DNA of 25,129 nucleotides from a virus: the IMG/VR virus record IMGVR_UViG_3300030090_001950, positions 5,007 through 30,135 of that record. One strand, written 5' to 3'. Shown piece after piece: positions 15,540 to 25,129 of this stretch. The first letter of the stretch is position 1; each line of letters begins with the position of its first letter. The position numbers and the translations under genes are program-made. Below the pieces are notes generated by a model. That model was not told where the DNA came from. It did no database searches and saw nothing but the letters and a program-made list of their open reading frames with translations.

Positions 15540-16046
15540 TTAACCTTGTTTATTTAATATATTATTAGCCACCTTATTATTATTATCTTTAGAAACACTA
15601 CTAAACCTATCTATTATTCTTTCTTTATCTAACTCTATATTGCTTTTACTTAGCTTAGGCAAAGCACTAGCATTTGCTGACCTAGTTTGGTTTCTATACT
15701 TCATCTTAGCTAATACTCCACGTTTACCCGCTAAACTTCTTTGTTCACGTATTTTATTTATTTTATTAAACTCAGCTAATAACCTTTTATTAGTAAAAGA
15801 TAGTTTATCATCATTAGGCATAAACAAAGGTTCTAATTGCTCGTTCCATAACTTCTGCCACTTTTTACCTTCATTACTAAACCCACAAATACGATGAGCA
15901 TGAGCATATTTTAAACTACAATCCCGTTCTAAAAACATACGACATAATAGCTTAATATAGCACCCCGTTGCTTCGTTAGTGAGGTGATTAGTATCAACAA
16001 GGAAGTCAGCGCAGTATAGACCGAAAAAGAAACTCTTTTCTTTCAT
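15540..16046 (-). CDS. DUF1376-type (YdaU-like) protein, possible replication initiator (168 aa)
   Basis: The N-terminal 100 residues fit the DUF1376 pattern: FFFGLYCADFLVDTNHLTNEATGCYIKLLCRMF, where L-DTxHL-xExxGxYxxLL is the core. A winged-helix-like continuation (CGFSNEGKKWQKLWNEQLEPLFM) follows, then NKRLLAEFNKINKIREQRSLAGKRG, also typical. The C-terminus is Lys/Asn/Ser-rich and probably flexible. Proteins of this family occur in phages and prophages near replication genes and are thought to act like replisome organisers. It is the last gene before the long non-coding region, which would be a natural target. The start overlaps the preceding stop (ATGA) and has an AAGGAG site. Family call good; initiator role inferred. 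Confidence 0.75.
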   Translation of the reverse strand: MKEKSFFFGLYCADFLVDTNHLTNEATGCYIKLLCRMFLERDCSLKYAHAHRICGFSNEGKKWQKLWNEQLEPLFMPNDDKLSFTNKRLLAEFNKINKIREQRSLAGKRGVLAKMKYRNQTRSANASALPKLSKSNIELDKERIIDRFSSVSKDNNNKVANNILNKQG

Positions 16047-16570
16047 GACTTACTCCTTATATTTTTTTCTTTTAAATTATCAACAACAGCGTTGGATAAA
16101 CCAATATATATATCTCCACCACCTTTATCCAGATGATTGTTAATAAACTCAGCTTTCTCATTACCAAATATAATTACTAAAGAATCATAAAATGCTTTAT
16201 AAGCTGGTAAATTACCGTCCTTATAGCATTTTAATAAACGATAGCGATTTCGTATAATAAGCGTGTTATTCTTATTAACTGTAAAAGGACTAGCAGCACA
16301 TCCAAAAGGTTTCGCCTTATGAACGCCACACAACCCGTTCTCTTTCTGGAAGGGACATCTATTAGCTTTAGGTACTAACAAGCTATTGTCGTCTATTTGT
16401 GCGCCTTTATTTGTCATACTTTCCCGTTCTTCCGGAAGAATATGCACGATTGCACCATGTTTAGAGGATTTGCAACACGCACCTTTGCATACATTATTAA
16501 TATATTCCTCCGTACAACCGTGAAAAACTTGTCGACACATTGCAGCCGATATTTTAATTTTCGTCATCAT
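16043..16570 (-). CDS. YkgJ-type cysteine-cluster (metal-binding) protein (about 175 aa)
   Basis: The cysteine pattern is the zinc/iron-chelating cluster of YkgJ-like proteins: NNVCKGACCKSS (C-x3-CC), then RCPFQKENGLCGVHKAKPFGCAASPF, matching the C-f...gC-iy--RP--C--FPf motif. Further Cys lie near the start (AMCRQVFHGC) and at LLKCYKD. Such proteins are predicted to hold an Fe-S or zinc centre; their reactions are mostly unknown. The frame is open back to a GTG at 16603, but the first plausible starts are the ATG pair at 16570/16567 (MMTKIKISAAMC), with only a weak GGA-type ribosome site. It overlaps the end of the methyltransferase gene by 17 bases, so the two are probably coupled and may act together. 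Confidence 0.75.
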   Translation of the reverse strand: MMTKIKISAAMCRQVFHGCTEEYINNVCKGACCKSSKHGAIVHILPEERESMTNKGAQIDDNSLLVPKANRCPFQKENGLCGVHKAKPFGCAASPFTVNKNNTLIIRNRYRLLKCYKDGNLPAYKAFYDSLVIIFGNEKAEFINNHLDKGGGDIYIGLSNAVVDNLKEKNIRSKS

Positions 16571-17864
16571 TATAATCATCCATAGAAGGTAAAGGTATAT
16601 CACCTAATCTTTTCATAATCCTTTTTATATCTCCTTTAATAAAAATTAATACGTTTTGATGTGACTTACCTATTTTTCTAACTGTTTTAAAACTACGACT
16701 TGCTCGTAATGGTAAACTGCCTACCGATGTTGCTAATATCATTTCATTATAATAATATACTCCACACTCCTCAAAATACTCTATGGTCTTAGGCACAAAA
16801 GATTTATAATTACCCTCTTTATTTCGTATTTCCCCTATAACCCAACAAGCAAAACTATCATCTTCTAGTAAGTCGCAGGTTTTATGTATTATTTTTCTAT
16901 AAATAGTATTAAATTCTTCCCAGTTTTTATTAGAAAGGTCGTCCTTATTATCCGTATAATTTTCTAAATCATGATAAGGTGGGCAACTTAATACCATATT
17001 CGCTTTTTTTGTCACCAACGTGTCAATTTCAGAACTGTCGCCAACTATCCACAAAGGCGGTGTAGTATCTTTAATAATTCGCTCAGATTGCTCAATATTG
17101 GCTTCAACTTGTCTTTTACTTAAATCAACACCAATATATTCTCTATTATATAAACTTGCGACAATACCACGAACACTTCCACCTGCAAAAGGGTCTAATA
17201 CTACGTCATTAATTGTACTAAACCATTTAACTAAAATTTCGCATAAGACAGGGTCAAAAATGCTTGTGTCTTTACCTCTTAAAGAAACTTTAGCATTCGT
17301 AAATAATAAATCTTTATCCCTTCCTTCACCGCTATTTATCCCTATTTGTTCCGTCCAAAACTTTTTACGGTCTTGCCAATATCCTTTACGAGCGTCTAAT
17401 ATACTAAAAGGTGGAACTAAAAAATTTTGAAACATATTTTTAGCTCTAGAAGGGTCAGAATCGTAAGGGTCGCCATTAATAATATCATCGGCTTCCATTA
17501 TATCAAAACCTGCCATATCTAAATCCACCCCTAATTCTTTTAAATTAATTAGTTCTAAATTTAATAAAGCATCATCCCAACTAGATATTTCTCCTACTTT
17601 ATTATCCGCTATTCTATATGCTTTAACTTTTTCTTGGCTTAAATCAGCAGTTACTACCGGCACTTTATCTAAATGTAACTCTTGTGCAGCACGATAGCGT
17701 GTATGTCCTACTATAATAACATTATCTTTATCTACTACTATAGGTTGTTGCCAACCAAAATTTTCTAAACTTTCTTTAACTTTGCTTATAGCATCTTCTG
17801 AAATAATACGAGGATTGCGGTCATAAGGTTTAATAGTATTAATATCTGTCATTATAGTTTTCAT
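16554..17864 (-). CDS. ParB-like domain fused to DNA methyltransferase (436 aa)
   Basis: The N-terminal 90 residues form a ParB/sulfiredoxin-like domain: INTIKPYDRNPRI, then GWQQPIVVDKDNVIIVGHTRYRAA (GHTRYRAA at 53-60 is the ParB box II equivalent) and VKAYRIADNKVGE. From about residue 190 an amino-methyltransferase follows, with motif I DPFAGGS (224-230), acidic motif II in YIGVDLS (243-249), and catalytic motif IV SCPPY (293-297). KSHQNVLIFIKG near 400-411 is typical of phage methylases. Motif I precedes motif IV, so the order differs from beta-class (DPPY-first) enzymes. It probably methylates adenine N6 or cytosine N4 to protect phage DNA; the target site is unknown. No partner restriction enzyme is visible. 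AAAGGA ribosome site before M1; M5 is an alternative. Confidence 0.85.
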   Translation of the reverse strand: MKTIMTDINTIKPYDRNPRIISEDAISKVKESLENFGWQQPIVVDKDNVIIVGHTRYRAAQELHLDKVPVVTADLSQEKVKAYRIADNKVGEISSWDDALLNLELINLKELGVDLDMAGFDIMEADDIINGDPYDSDPSRAKNMFQNFLVPPFSILDARKGYWQDRKKFWTEQIGINSGEGRDKDLLFTNAKVSLRGKDTSIFDPVLCEILVKWFSTINDVVLDPFAGGSVRGIVASLYNREYIGVDLSKRQVEANIEQSERIIKDTTPPLWIVGDSSEIDTLVTKKANMVLSCPPYHDLENYTDNKDDLSNKNWEEFNTIYRKIIHKTCDLLEDDSFACWVIGEIRNKEGNYKSFVPKTIEYFEECGVYYYNEMILATSVGSLPLRASRSFKTVRKIGKSHQNVLIFIKGDIKRIMKRLGDIPLPSMDDYNDDEN

Positions 17865-18056: not shown

Positions 18057-19556
18057 TTATCCTCCTATATCTGCTCTTTGTTGCCAATTATGGTCTTTTG
18101 GTTTATCTTCGCTTTCAAATAATCCCTTGTTTATATTAAAATTCATATCCATTACTCTCGGAAAACCCAACTCCTCATAACGAGTTTTCCATACTGTTAA
18201 TTTACACTCCGTGCTACGACTACCATCATCATTGGTAAATTGAGGTCGCCATAAACTAAATATATGGTCTGGCTTGTTATACCAATGTGCCGAACCAGAA
18301 ATACTATAAGCTGTAGGTGCAGACGCTCCCACCTTTTGATCTGGTTTTGCAGGGTGTGCTAACACCATTATATGTATATCTAAAACTTTTGCCAGTGCCG
18401 TTAAATCGTCTAAACAACGTCCGATAAATTGTGTTTCGCTACCCCCACTAAAAGTAGGCATTTCTAACTTATTAAAAGGGTCTAATATAAAAGCACCTAT
18501 CCCATAACGAGCTTTCATATCCCGTATTTTTTCACATACCCACTTAAAATTAGGTGTATTATTAGGGTGGTTTAAAAAATAAAAATGATCTCGAATCCAC
18601 CAATCAGCACTATCTTTTTCTTGATCAGTACATTCAAACTCTAATTTTTTATGAAATATAGTGCGTAATGACCTTCTAACGTAAGGTTTAACTCTTGTTT
18701 CTCCCATAAACATTCCTACTGTAATTTTATAAGATAAACATATTTGTGCCCACATTTGTATAGTAAATGAAGTTTTTCCATGACCGGGATAACCGGTAAA
18801 CACACTCACCATTCCCGCTCCTAACATTACTTTATCATGCCAACCTTCAAATTGAGGATTCCATAAAGTAATAGGTGATGGCTCCGGAATTTCATCTAAA
18901 TTATAAACACCTTCTATTGGAAAGGCTTGTAAAGATTCTTTAATAAAATATTGTATTTCATCTTTGCCAAGTTTAATTAAAAGTTCATTAACATCTTTAA
19001 TTCCTTTAGGAAAATCTACAAACATACATTTCCCATGACCTAAAATACCTGCTAAATCATTTCTTAAAAAACGTCCTTGTTCATCATTATCTGTTATAAG
19101 CACATATTTTTTGGCTTTACTTAAACCTAATTCTAAACCATCTAAAACATATTGATATTTTCGAGAATTTTCCGGCTCTTCAACAGAACTAGCGGGAGCT
19201 CCGTTAGGAACACTTAATATGCTATCTAAAGCAAACCCACTTTCATACAAAGCCAACGCATCAAATTCACCTTCCGTTATATATAAAGTATCTAAATTTT
19301 TAGATTTTAAAACATTATCTAAGTTAAAAAATTGTTGTGTTCCGTCTTTTTGTTGTTTAAATACTTTTTCTTCAATTGCTCTTGCTTTATAATTTACTCT
19401 TTCACCTTTTAAATCATAATAACCAAATACAATAGATTCTAATTCTCTATTACCATATTTGCCCTTCCCACTTTCGCACCTTAAATCTGTGAGGGTCTTC
19501 TGACTTATCCCCCTCTTTTTTGCGAATTGGATAACTTTTTCTTTTAGTGGCTTCAT
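18057..19556 (-). CDS. Replicative primase-helicase: TOPRIM plus DnaB/RecA-type helicase (499 aa)
   Basis: This resembles T7 gp4 without its zinc domain. The N-terminal FAKKRGISQKTL is the usual lead-in to the primase core. The TOPRIM domain has LYITEGEFDALAL (Glu95) and VLITDNDEQGR (Asp156/Asp158). The helicase has Walker A GYPGHGKT (255-262), Walker B FILDP (about 356-360), VLAHPAKP (398-405) and a WKTRYEELG segment (456-464) where an arginine finger is expected. It would unwind DNA and make primers at the fork. Its ATG has its own GGGAG site nine bases upstream, inside the zinc-ribbon gene, which reads through 107 bases of its 5' end in another frame. A separate start or +1 frameshifted fusion are both possible. 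Confidence 0.9.
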   Translation of the reverse strand: MKPLKEKVIQFAKKRGISQKTLTDLRCESGKGKYGNRELESIVFGYYDLKGERVNYKARAIEEKVFKQQKDGTQQFFNLDNVLKSKNLDTLYITEGEFDALALYESGFALDSILSVPNGAPASSVEEPENSRKYQYVLDGLELGLSKAKKYVLITDNDEQGRFLRNDLAGILGHGKCMFVDFPKGIKDVNELLIKLGKDEIQYFIKESLQAFPIEGVYNLDEIPEPSPITLWNPQFEGWHDKVMLGAGMVSVFTGYPGHGKTSFTIQMWAQICLSYKITVGMFMGETRVKPYVRRSLRTIFHKKLEFECTDQEKDSADWWIRDHFYFLNHPNNTPNFKWVCEKIRDMKARYGIGAFILDPFNKLEMPTFSGGSETQFIGRCLDDLTALAKVLDIHIMVLAHPAKPDQKVGASAPTAYSISGSAHWYNKPDHIFSLWRPQFTNDDGSRSTECKLTVWKTRYEELGFPRVMDMNFNINKGLFESEDKPKDHNWQQRADIGG

Positions 19557-19731
19557 AATATTCTGCTCCCTTTACATTACAATGATGACAAAAATAAACG
19601 ATACAATCTTGTTTCACCCAAACAGATAATGGTGCATCGTTTTTGTGTTTTTTTCTAAGGTGCTGACATTCTGGGCATGAGTATTTGCCACTTCTTTTAA
19701 ATGCCAACACCTTTTCCCTCTCAATCGGCAT
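19450..19731 (-). CDS. Primase zinc-ribbon protein, split from the helicase (93 aa)
   Basis: CPECQHLRKKH (Cys19, Cys22) and FCHHCNVKG (Cys48, Cys51) form a CxxC...CxxC zinc ribbon, with the hydrophobic spacer (PLSVWVKQDCIVYF) typical of the zinc-binding domain of T7-type primases, which recognises the priming site. In T7 gp4 this domain is at the N-terminus of one protein. Here it is a separate frame ending in a basic tail (KKEGDKSEDPHRFKVRKWEGQIW) that overlaps the first 107 bases of the helicase gene. The helicase lies in the +1 frame relative to this one, beyond a run of six A and five G around 19514-19524. The gene starts 10 bases inside the previous one. Confidence 0.82.
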   Translation of the reverse strand: MPIEREKVLAFKRSGKYSCPECQHLRKKHKNDAPLSVWVKQDCIVYFCHHCNVKGAEYYEATKRKSYPIRKKEGDKSEDPHRFKVRKWEGQIW

Positions 19732-19942
19732 TATTTTGTTTTTCTATGTAATTATATTGGGCAACTGTTTTCTTATTTTTTAATGTTTTATTACATTTTT
19801 GTATATTGTGTCCATCTTGTTTGAGGTCATAAATTCTAGCTGCTAATCTTGAAGAATTATAATGCTCAAAAGCTTCTAACCAATTAATTTTACCGTGTTT
19901 TTTAAGATGTGCTAATATTAATTCATTTTGTGTCTTTTTCAT
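19721..19942 (-). CDS. Winged-helix / HTH_55-like protein (73 aa)
   Basis: A small helix-turn-helix protein of the type found in many phages and prophages: ELILAHLKKHGKINWLEAFEHYNSSRLAARIYDLKQDGHNI, in which a helix-turn-helix ends in RLAARI-DLK--G--I, followed by a short beta wing (KKTVAQYNYIEK). This matches the helix-turn-helix family called HTH_55 in Pfam as I recall it. It probably binds DNA, either as a regulator or as a replication accessory; the position among replication genes leaves both open. The start lies 20 bases inside the end of the resolvase-like gene with a GGGGAG site, and its stop overlaps the zinc-ribbon start, so the run is tightly coupled. Confidence 0.8.
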   Translation of the reverse strand: MKKTQNELILAHLKKHGKINWLEAFEHYNSSRLAARIYDLKQDGHNIQKCNKTLKNKKTVAQYNYIEKQNNAD

Positions 19943-22000: not shown

Positions 22001-22295
22001 CTTCTACCTTATCGTACCAAGCATTTTTATCAGTAGGTAATACTCTATCTGCCCACCACATAGGGTGTTCAGAACTTTCATGTTTTTGCTTTTTAAATTT
22101 CATCATTTCTTCAACTTTATCACTAAATTCTTCTAAATCATCTATATCTTTAAAAGTCAGATGTCGAACTCCACTTTCTCTAACATCTCTAACAACTGTA
22201 TTTATTTGATTAATTAGTTTTAAGATGTCTTTATTTTCATCTTCATTTAGATTAGTTTTAATATTATCATATTTAATTATTTTATTTTTAGGCAT
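21990..22295 (-). CDS. Hypothetical coiled-coil-like protein (101 aa)
   Basis: Unknown family. The N-terminal two thirds are helical and charged (NEDENKDILKLINQINTVVRDVRESG and IDDLEEFSDKVEEMMKFKKQKHE), suggesting a coiled-coil dimer. The C-terminal end is Trp-rich and acidic (HPMWWADRVLPTDKNAWYDKVEDDD). It overlaps the 178-residue gene by 8 bases and has an AAGGAG site in that overlap. The acidic, aromatic tail might mimic DNA or bind a partner, but nothing in the sequence decides this. Confidence 0.65.
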   Translation of the reverse strand: MPKNKIIKYDNIKTNLNEDENKDILKLINQINTVVRDVRESGVRHLTFKDIDDLEEFSDKVEEMMKFKKQKHESSEHPMWWADRVLPTDKNAWYDKVEDDD

Positions 22296-22824
22296 TTGTT
22301 ATCTCCTTATTACAATTTGTCATTTCAACATACCAATCTGGTGTAGGAATTCTTCCCCAATAAGCAATATCTTTCTTATGATAAGCATAATATTGCCTAT
22401 ATGCTTGAACTGTATCTTCAGCTTTATATATGTCTGGCATACATTGTGGTGGTTTTGTAAAACCTTTGGCACAACTTTCATGAATTGTAGAAAAACAGTC
22501 TTGCCATATCTTTTTTGTTGGGATTAACAAATCTAATATAACTTGTTGGCATTTATGGACTTTACCATAACGTCTAGTGTATTCAAAACATAACTCTAAA
22601 GCATGTTTTCTTAACCAAAGATAATTTTCATAACTATCACCTGCCCATATAGTCATAGGATGATTTTTAAATGATTCTTTATATTGTACTTTATCGCCAT
22701 GACCATATCTATGCCAGACACTTGATAGCATCTGGGCAGACTCTAATGGCATTTTTACAATATGCTTATCGCAAAGCATTCTTGCTGCTGTTTCAGGATT
22801 ATTATCTACAAAAAATATATTCAT
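22288..22824 (-). CDS. Conserved phage protein of unknown function, CDKH family (178 aa)
   Basis: I recognise the pattern but not the function. It starts MNIFFVDNNPETAARMLCDKHIVKMPLESAQMLSS (CDKH at 18-21, with VKM-LE-AQ-L), then KNHPMTIWAGDSYENYLWL, YTRRYGKVHKC and FTKPPQCMP-IYKAEDTVQAYRQYY. These blocks recur in proteins from many phages and some bacteria. The conserved His and Cys (Cys18, His21, His55, His90) could bind metal or be catalytic; a DNA-repair or nucleotide enzyme would be a guess. It is the first gene after the promoter-like element at 22853-22881, with an AAGGAG site. Confidence 0.75.
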   Translation of the reverse strand: MNIFFVDNNPETAARMLCDKHIVKMPLESAQMLSSVWHRYGHGDKVQYKESFKNHPMTIWAGDSYENYLWLRKHALELCFEYTRRYGKVHKCQQVILDLLIPTKKIWQDCFSTIHESCAKGFTKPPQCMPDIYKAEDTVQAYRQYYAYHKKDIAYWGRIPTPDWYVEMTNCNKEITNA

Positions 22825-23923: not shown

Positions 23924-25129
23924 TTAACTTTTTATTTTATATTCTTTTTCTATTATTCCTAATTCTTCATTGCCTCTATTATAATTTTTAATCCATACTT
24001 TTTTACCGGTTTTATATGTTCGCAAATGACCTCTTACGCTATGAAATCTATTTTCATGATGTTTTGTATTAATAGAAGTATTTGTATATTTATTAACGAT
24101 ATTAGGATTTATTGTTAAAGTTTTAAATTCGTAATAATTTTGTTTATTTCTATTATGTCTTTTAGAACCTTGACAATTATTAATCTCATTAACAGTTTTT
24201 TCATTACTTATTGCTGATAAAAGTAAAAACAAATTATTGGAAATACCTCGTAAATATTTTATGTTTAAATTAAACAATTCTTCTTGAATTTTATCTAATT
24301 TATTTTCTATATTATTAATAGTCATATCTATTGATCTATCTTTATCATTTAACATAAAAGATTTAATTGTTTTATCAGCTTTTTCTTGTTCTAAATGCTC
24401 TAACCATAAATGAGCAGTTTGTGATACAGTAAATTGTGTTTTATCATTTGCTAATATGTCTAAATGAGTAAAATTGTCCCATTTAGAACCGAAATAACTA
24501 GAAACTAATCTAACATGGTCATTTACTCGAAAATTTTTTAAGTTTAAGTCGTGTTTGCCCCATAAAAATCTATCCGTATGATCAATTCCTTTTGGTTTTA
24601 ATTTTAAATCTATTAAAGACATTTTATTACTAAATAAAAGAGAGTACATAGGAGCTATTATTTTAATTGGATTTTTTCTACTGCCGACATTTCTAAACTC
24701 TTTTATATATAATGTTGATATATAAGGTGTAATCAAGTATAAAAAATCATTGTTTTTTGGCACTTGCGAATTGTAAGTTTTCTTAATATGAAAACCAGAT
24801 ATAAATTCTTCGTTATTATCTTTTACTTCTATCCATGTGTTATCATAAGGTATTTTAATATCAGTAACATTACACCCCTTTGGACAATTTTTATTTATCC
24901 ATTCAGCAGAAGTAGAAAATTTATGGCTATTTCTTAATTGGCTTCTTAGCTCTAATAAATGTTTTTTATCTCTTTTTAATAAAGATCGAGTAAAAAGCAT
25001 TTTCCAATTTTCTTCTTTTTGATTAAAAACATCTAATATATTGTAATTTATTGTTTCTGAACCACAAAAATGAAAAGCCACTTCTGGTTTTTTATAACTA
25101 TGTATAATAGTATCTAAAAATTTATTCAT
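23924..25129 (-). CDS. Hypothetical phage protein with C-terminal RGH-RG motif (401+ aa, start may lie outside)
   Basis: The frame reaches the right edge exactly at an ATG (25129-25127), so the true start may lie further right and no ribosome site can be seen. The body is rich in Asn, Lys, Leu and Ile, mainly helical in the middle (a helical stretch near 250-300, TINNIENKLDKIQEELFNL). I recognise only the C-terminal 40 residues: HSVRGHLRTYKTGKKVWIKNYNRG. This VRGH-R-Y-xGK-VWx-xxxRG signature recurs at the end of many phage and mobile-element proteins of unknown function. The N-terminal part carries Cys/His (CGSETINYN, NKNCPKGCN). No enzyme motif is evident. Confidence 0.65.
   Translation of the reverse strand: MNKFLDTIIHSYKKPEVAFHFCGSETINYNILDVFNQKEENWKMLFTRSLLKRDKKHLLELRSQLRNSHKFSTSAEWINKNCPKGCNVTDIKIPYDNTWIEVKDNNEEFISGFHIKKTYNSQVPKNNDFLYLITPYISTLYIKEFRNVGSRKNPIKIIAPMYSLLFSNKMSLIDLKLKPKGIDHTDRFLWGKHDLNLKNFRVNDHVRLVSSYFGSKWDNFTHLDILANDKTQFTVSQTAHLWLEHLEQEKADKTIKSFMLNDKDRSIDMTINNIENKLDKIQEELFNLNIKYLRGISNNLFLLLSAISNEKTVNEINNCQGSKRHNRNKQNYYEFKTLTINPNIVNKYTNTSINTKHHENRFHSVRGHLRTYKTGKKVWIKNYNRGNEELGIIEKEYKIKS

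Follow-up and report, generated by a model that had tools for sequence, protein, structure and literature searches.

A T7 gp4-type primase-helicase encoded in two overlapping frames, with a putative trans-acting zinc-binding protein

The zinc-ribbon and TOPRIM-helicase genes

The window analysed here is a stretch of 25,129 nucleotides from the virus record IMGVR_UViG_3300030090_001950. On its minus strand a short zinc-ribbon gene runs into, and overlaps, a gene for a TOPRIM primase and DnaB-type helicase, and the features of this region are as follows.

19721–19942, minus strand: HTH_39 winged-helix gene, upstream of the zinc ORF (Pfam HTH_39, E 4e-15)
19450–19731, minus strand: predicted stand-alone primase zinc-binding protein, 93 aa (ORF; profile and PHROG matches)
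19554–19570, minus strand: helicase ATG (19554–19556) with a Shine-Dalgarno-like GGGAG (19566–19570), from the sequence
18057–19556, minus strand: TOPRIM primase/DnaB-type helicase, 499 aa (Pfam, phrog_239, T7 gp4 alignment, predicted structure)
19450–19556, minus strand: dual-coding overlap of 107 nt, holding the tail of the zinc protein and, in +1, the N-terminus of the helicase (two-frame conservation)
19509–19521, minus strand: A6-G-A-G5 run, a proposed slip site (varies among split relatives)

The final 11 nt of the HTH_39 gene overlap the start of the zinc ORF. The ORF coordinates bear out the first-pass annotation, which was made from the sequence alone, as to both ORFs, their 107-nt overlap and the +1 phase of the helicase, and GGGAG does lie nine bases 5' of the helicase ATG. 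That annotation had also placed a run of A6 and G5 in the overlap; the run is there, with a small correction, the minus strand reading AAAAAAGAGGGGG with A6 at 19516–19521 and G5 at 19509–19513. Rfam and tRNA scans across the window gave no matches.

The helicase ORF matches Pfam Toprim_2 (4e-7) and DnaB_C (2e-8), and aligns to the DNA primase/helicase family phrog_239 over profile positions 118–614 (E 2e-70). Its alignment to T7 gp4 begins at gp4 residue 66, about where the short form gp4B starts (Met64 in T7), and T7 gp4 is the top structure match of its predicted model. The acidic TOPRIM residues E95, E97, D156 and D158 are kept in the alignment, as is a Walker-type GHGKT. By these matches TOPRIM and DnaB/RecA-like helicase domains lie on a single chain, as in gp4-type proteins. 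Since the phrog_239 match runs from position 118, the gp4 alignment from residue 66, and gp4 is the best structure match, the 499-aa ORF is, as judged by homology, the equivalent of gp4B.

The zinc ribbon (CPEC..CHHC) occupies residues 19–51 of the 93-aa protein and is followed by a basic C-terminal tail of ~34 aa. Searched alone, the window's own zinc ORF gave a weak primase match (E 0.016). A profile built from 35 relatives, by contrast, aligned with an hhalign probability of 99.7 to the zinc domains at the N-terminus of fused relatives, and 17 of 36 zinc-protein members matched phrog_47 (DNA primase) and 13 of 36 phrog_239, which identifies the CxxC..CxxC domain as a homologue of the primase zinc-binding domain. 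A Foldseek comparison of the predicted structure with PDB folds, which gave no significant match, and a PDB sequence search with the zinc profile both returned only generic zinc proteins, DNA primase chains appearing at E about 0.9. The tail is modelled with low confidence. Among split members it is 24–38 aa long, nearly always 29–38, with a mean net charge of +5; its approximate consensus in GC-rich members is DFGxxARRxRYG. This conserved basic tail may serve in docking or in binding DNA.

Distribution of the split among relatives

In a non-redundant set of 146 relatives, 57 have the zinc motif fused in frame to the helicase; another 49 have it out of frame, and no zinc motif was recognised in the remaining 40. 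The helicase is in +1 relative to the zinc frame in every one of the 49 out-of-frame relatives, and neither in these nor in the window do the zinc domain and the TOPRIM-helicase form one continuous frame. Three explanations had been offered for the arrangement at the outset: a truly split primase, a programmed +1 frameshift, or an assembly homopolymer error. Aligning the homologues had been proposed as a check, and the result, a deeply conserved split of uniform phase, favours the first of these.

The A6 and G5 runs do fall in the overlap, where a miscounted base could have cut one continuous gene. However, many samples have yielded independent contigs with the same split, and it is found as well in GC-rich relatives that lack the run, in one GenBank phage (BDU-MI-1) and in bacterial genome records. 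The identical 107-nt overlap occurs in independent IMG/VR contigs whose helicases are 62–74% identical. Together with the position of the split on a single branch of the helicase tree (below), the shared phase of all 49 out-of-frame relatives refutes assembly error, to which we attach practically no probability.

The split members are alphaproteobacterial phages or prophages together with marine contigs, and the bacterial genome records that carry the split are alphaproteobacterial, including Bradyrhizobium and Methylocapsa. Bradyrhizobium phage BDU-MI-1 (KY940711) has the same split, phase and order, and is a distant member, with about 28% identity to an L097-type member of the clade and 37% to L208. 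In an unrooted tree of 97 helicases, built by a quick method, split members make up one side of a single branch (SH-aLRT 99), and one change is enough to account for the split. Because fused forms are widely spread, we infer, the tree being unrooted, that the split form derived from the fused one. The tether between zinc domain and helicase was apparently lost once, across the entire clade, with no reversion in the set examined.

Selection in the overlap and the route to the helicase

The overlap exceeds chance. When synonymous codons were shuffled within each helicase gene, keeping protein and codon usage, the zinc frame of the window gene reached its stop without interruption at P = 0.009; the corresponding values were 0.002–0.04 in most AT-rich relatives (0.34 in L205) and about 0.2–0.9 in GC-rich members, in which the frame is often open by chance. 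Conservation of the zinc frame was then scored between helicases 36–62% identical. It can be seen that over helicase codons 1–35 the score is z = 19.7, while elsewhere in the gene it lies between -0.5 and 3.0; these values rank regions and are not probabilities because the pairs share ancestry. In five-codon steps the signal lasts to the zinc stop and is then gone (codons 36–40, z = 1.1), and over the same region fused relatives score 2.3 compared with 18.5 for split ones. In the reverse test, with zinc codons shuffled, the helicase frame gives z of about 0 upstream of its start codon, followed by 4.4 and 10.1.

The third frame is also raised in the overlap (z = 10.9), although it holds stops in AT-rich members, and part of the conservation signal is therefore constraint at the nucleotide level, as expected of bases that serve two codes at once. 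Selection acts on both frames throughout the overlap, and its limits are the predicted helicase start and the zinc stop. The region thus shows the purifying selection on both frames that characterises an overlapping gene pair, and does so with the fused relatives as a control.

These results bear on whether the tail of the zinc ORF is a mere by-product, only the ribbon mattering and the overlap being neutral read-on to the first chance stop. The frequent chance openness of the zinc frame in GC-rich members would fit such an origin. Set against it, AT-rich members keep the frame open at odds of mostly 0.002–0.04, residues of the zinc frame are much better conserved than under synonymous permutation, also where both members of a pair are GC-rich, and tail length and charge are steady; we consider neutral read-on highly improbable. 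As a separate observation, in three split relatives (L209:2814–3491, L213:2811–3206 and L218:2826–3284) the zinc frame remains open 200–520 nt into the helicase gene, well past the usual stop, and for L209 none of 1000 permutations kept it open that far. These three could possibly encode a much longer overlapping protein.

A start codon for the helicase lies near the expected position in 46 of the 53 split members, 7–46 nt past the last cysteine, and 37 of these 46 have a Shine-Dalgarno match of at least 4 nt. In the other seven (L097, L101, L188, L189, L206, L159 and L161) there is no ATG, GTG or TTG near the expected helicase start. A search upstream for an extension of the helicase in this start-less group found no helicase-frame conservation there, and that candidate was discarded.

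The lack of a nearby start codon in these seven would be accounted for if a programmed +1 frameshift yielded a gp4A-like fusion, whether in place of the zinc protein and short helicase or alongside them. The uniform +1 phase of the helicase in 49 of 49 split members is what such a shift would require, and T7 itself makes full and short forms (PMC12593628). A fixed phase would, however, also follow if all members had inherited one overlap from a common ancestor. No conserved slippery site was found in the overlap among split relatives, where A6/G5 and the other candidate motifs vary. At a shift site, selection on the upstream frame should end where that on the downstream frame begins; here both frames are selected across the whole overlap, the one as far as the zinc stop and the other from the helicase start onwards, and each unshifted product would therefore be expected to be made. 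In addition, a virtual fusion would carry only 21–34 residues between the last cysteine and the conserved TL site, whereas true fusions have 40 or more, with one outlier at 31.

Two-frame selection, the missing shared motif and linker length led us to reject an obligatory +1 frameshift, against which the helicase start codons of 46 of the 53 split members also speak, and as the main route the frameshift put forward in the first-pass annotation finds no support; we regard it as unlikely, while a minor frameshifted product may be made. We also considered prokaryotic +1 sites such as CCC TGA or TCC TGA, which some GC-rich members have where the zinc frame ends, but these are dictated by helicase F-P-E and vary elsewhere, and a shift there would remove the conserved helicase N-terminus.

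A proposed two-subunit primase and its relation to known systems

We propose that this locus encodes a T7 gp4-type primase-helicase in two pieces, with a zinc protein that works in trans and a helicase whose translation begins at a start codon of its own within the zinc gene, a reading to which we assign a probability of about 0.86. Two separate polypeptides would thus be made in the cell. The zinc ribbon protein would recognise where on the template priming is to occur, working in trans together with the hexamer's TOPRIM domain, and unwinding of DNA and polymerisation of the primer would fall to the 499-aa gp4B equivalent. Docking, on the hexamer or on DNA, would probably be through the conserved basic tail, itself overprinted on the helicase N-terminus. 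A bolder version adds that the docking tail arose de novo across the clade, that the seven start-less lineages reach the helicase by +1 frameshifting or non-standard initiation, and that such recoding sets the ratio of priming to unwinding subunits; we think this version unlikely.

The likeness to T7 gp4 (gp4A/gp4B, PHROG 239) extends to the same modules in the same order. In T7 the zinc domain and helicase are joined on one chain and gp4B, the short form, is made from an internal start of gp4 (PMC12593628), whereas here a gene of its own, in a different frame, encodes the zinc domain, and there is no ORF for an in-frame gp4A. Priming and unwinding are likewise on separate polypeptides in T4 (gp61 primase and gp41 helicase) and in bacteria (DnaG and DnaB). 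The cut in those systems, however, falls between primase (zinc-binding domain plus TOPRIM) and helicase, while here it falls between the zinc-binding domain and the TOPRIM-helicase. Docking of the zinc domain on the helicase is described for T4 (PMC10359460). To judge by the title of Corn et al. 2005, as cited in PMC10359460, the DnaG zinc domain acts in trans, which would be a precedent for the zinc domain of one subunit serving the catalytic domain of another, although the DnaG domain stays covalently attached to its own subunit, unlike the separate zinc protein here.

Descriptions of T7-like primase-helicases have a single chain, on which a zinc domain held by a tether locates the site for priming. 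One proposal is that the length of this tether contributes to setting that of the primer, and a test in T4 showed a small effect (PMC10359460). The apparent loss of the tether in this clade makes its role directly testable, and in a natural two-subunit primase the ratio of zinc protein to helicase can vary. The 107-nt overlap would clearly exemplify how overprinting of a conserved gene for replication can give rise to a new protein tail. Searches of the open literature turned up no earlier description of a split T7-type primase or of a primase whose zinc subunit is separate, though such an absence is no proof. The split gene is easily overlooked: in BDU-MI-1 the zinc-ribbon ORF is unannotated (L184:2802–3131, equal to KY940711.1 17539–17868), directly upstream of the annotated DNA primase/helicase.

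No family-A DNA polymerase was found in the whole record of 30135 bases, which carries the primase-helicase, an exonuclease and a terminase; the record may be incomplete. Four other minus-strand genes of the window are recorded here. That at 23924–25129 encodes a 401-aa protein without a Pfam match, its PHROG matches being weak and of unknown function. At 22288–22824 lies a pyrimidine dimer DNA glycosylase-like protein (Pfam Pyr_excise, 4e-11). A single ORF at 16554–17864 combines ParB_N nuclease-like and N6/N4 DNA methyltransferase domains, and it is overlapped by a gene with a GTG start at 16043–16603 for a CxxCxxCC (YkgJ-type) metal-binding protein.
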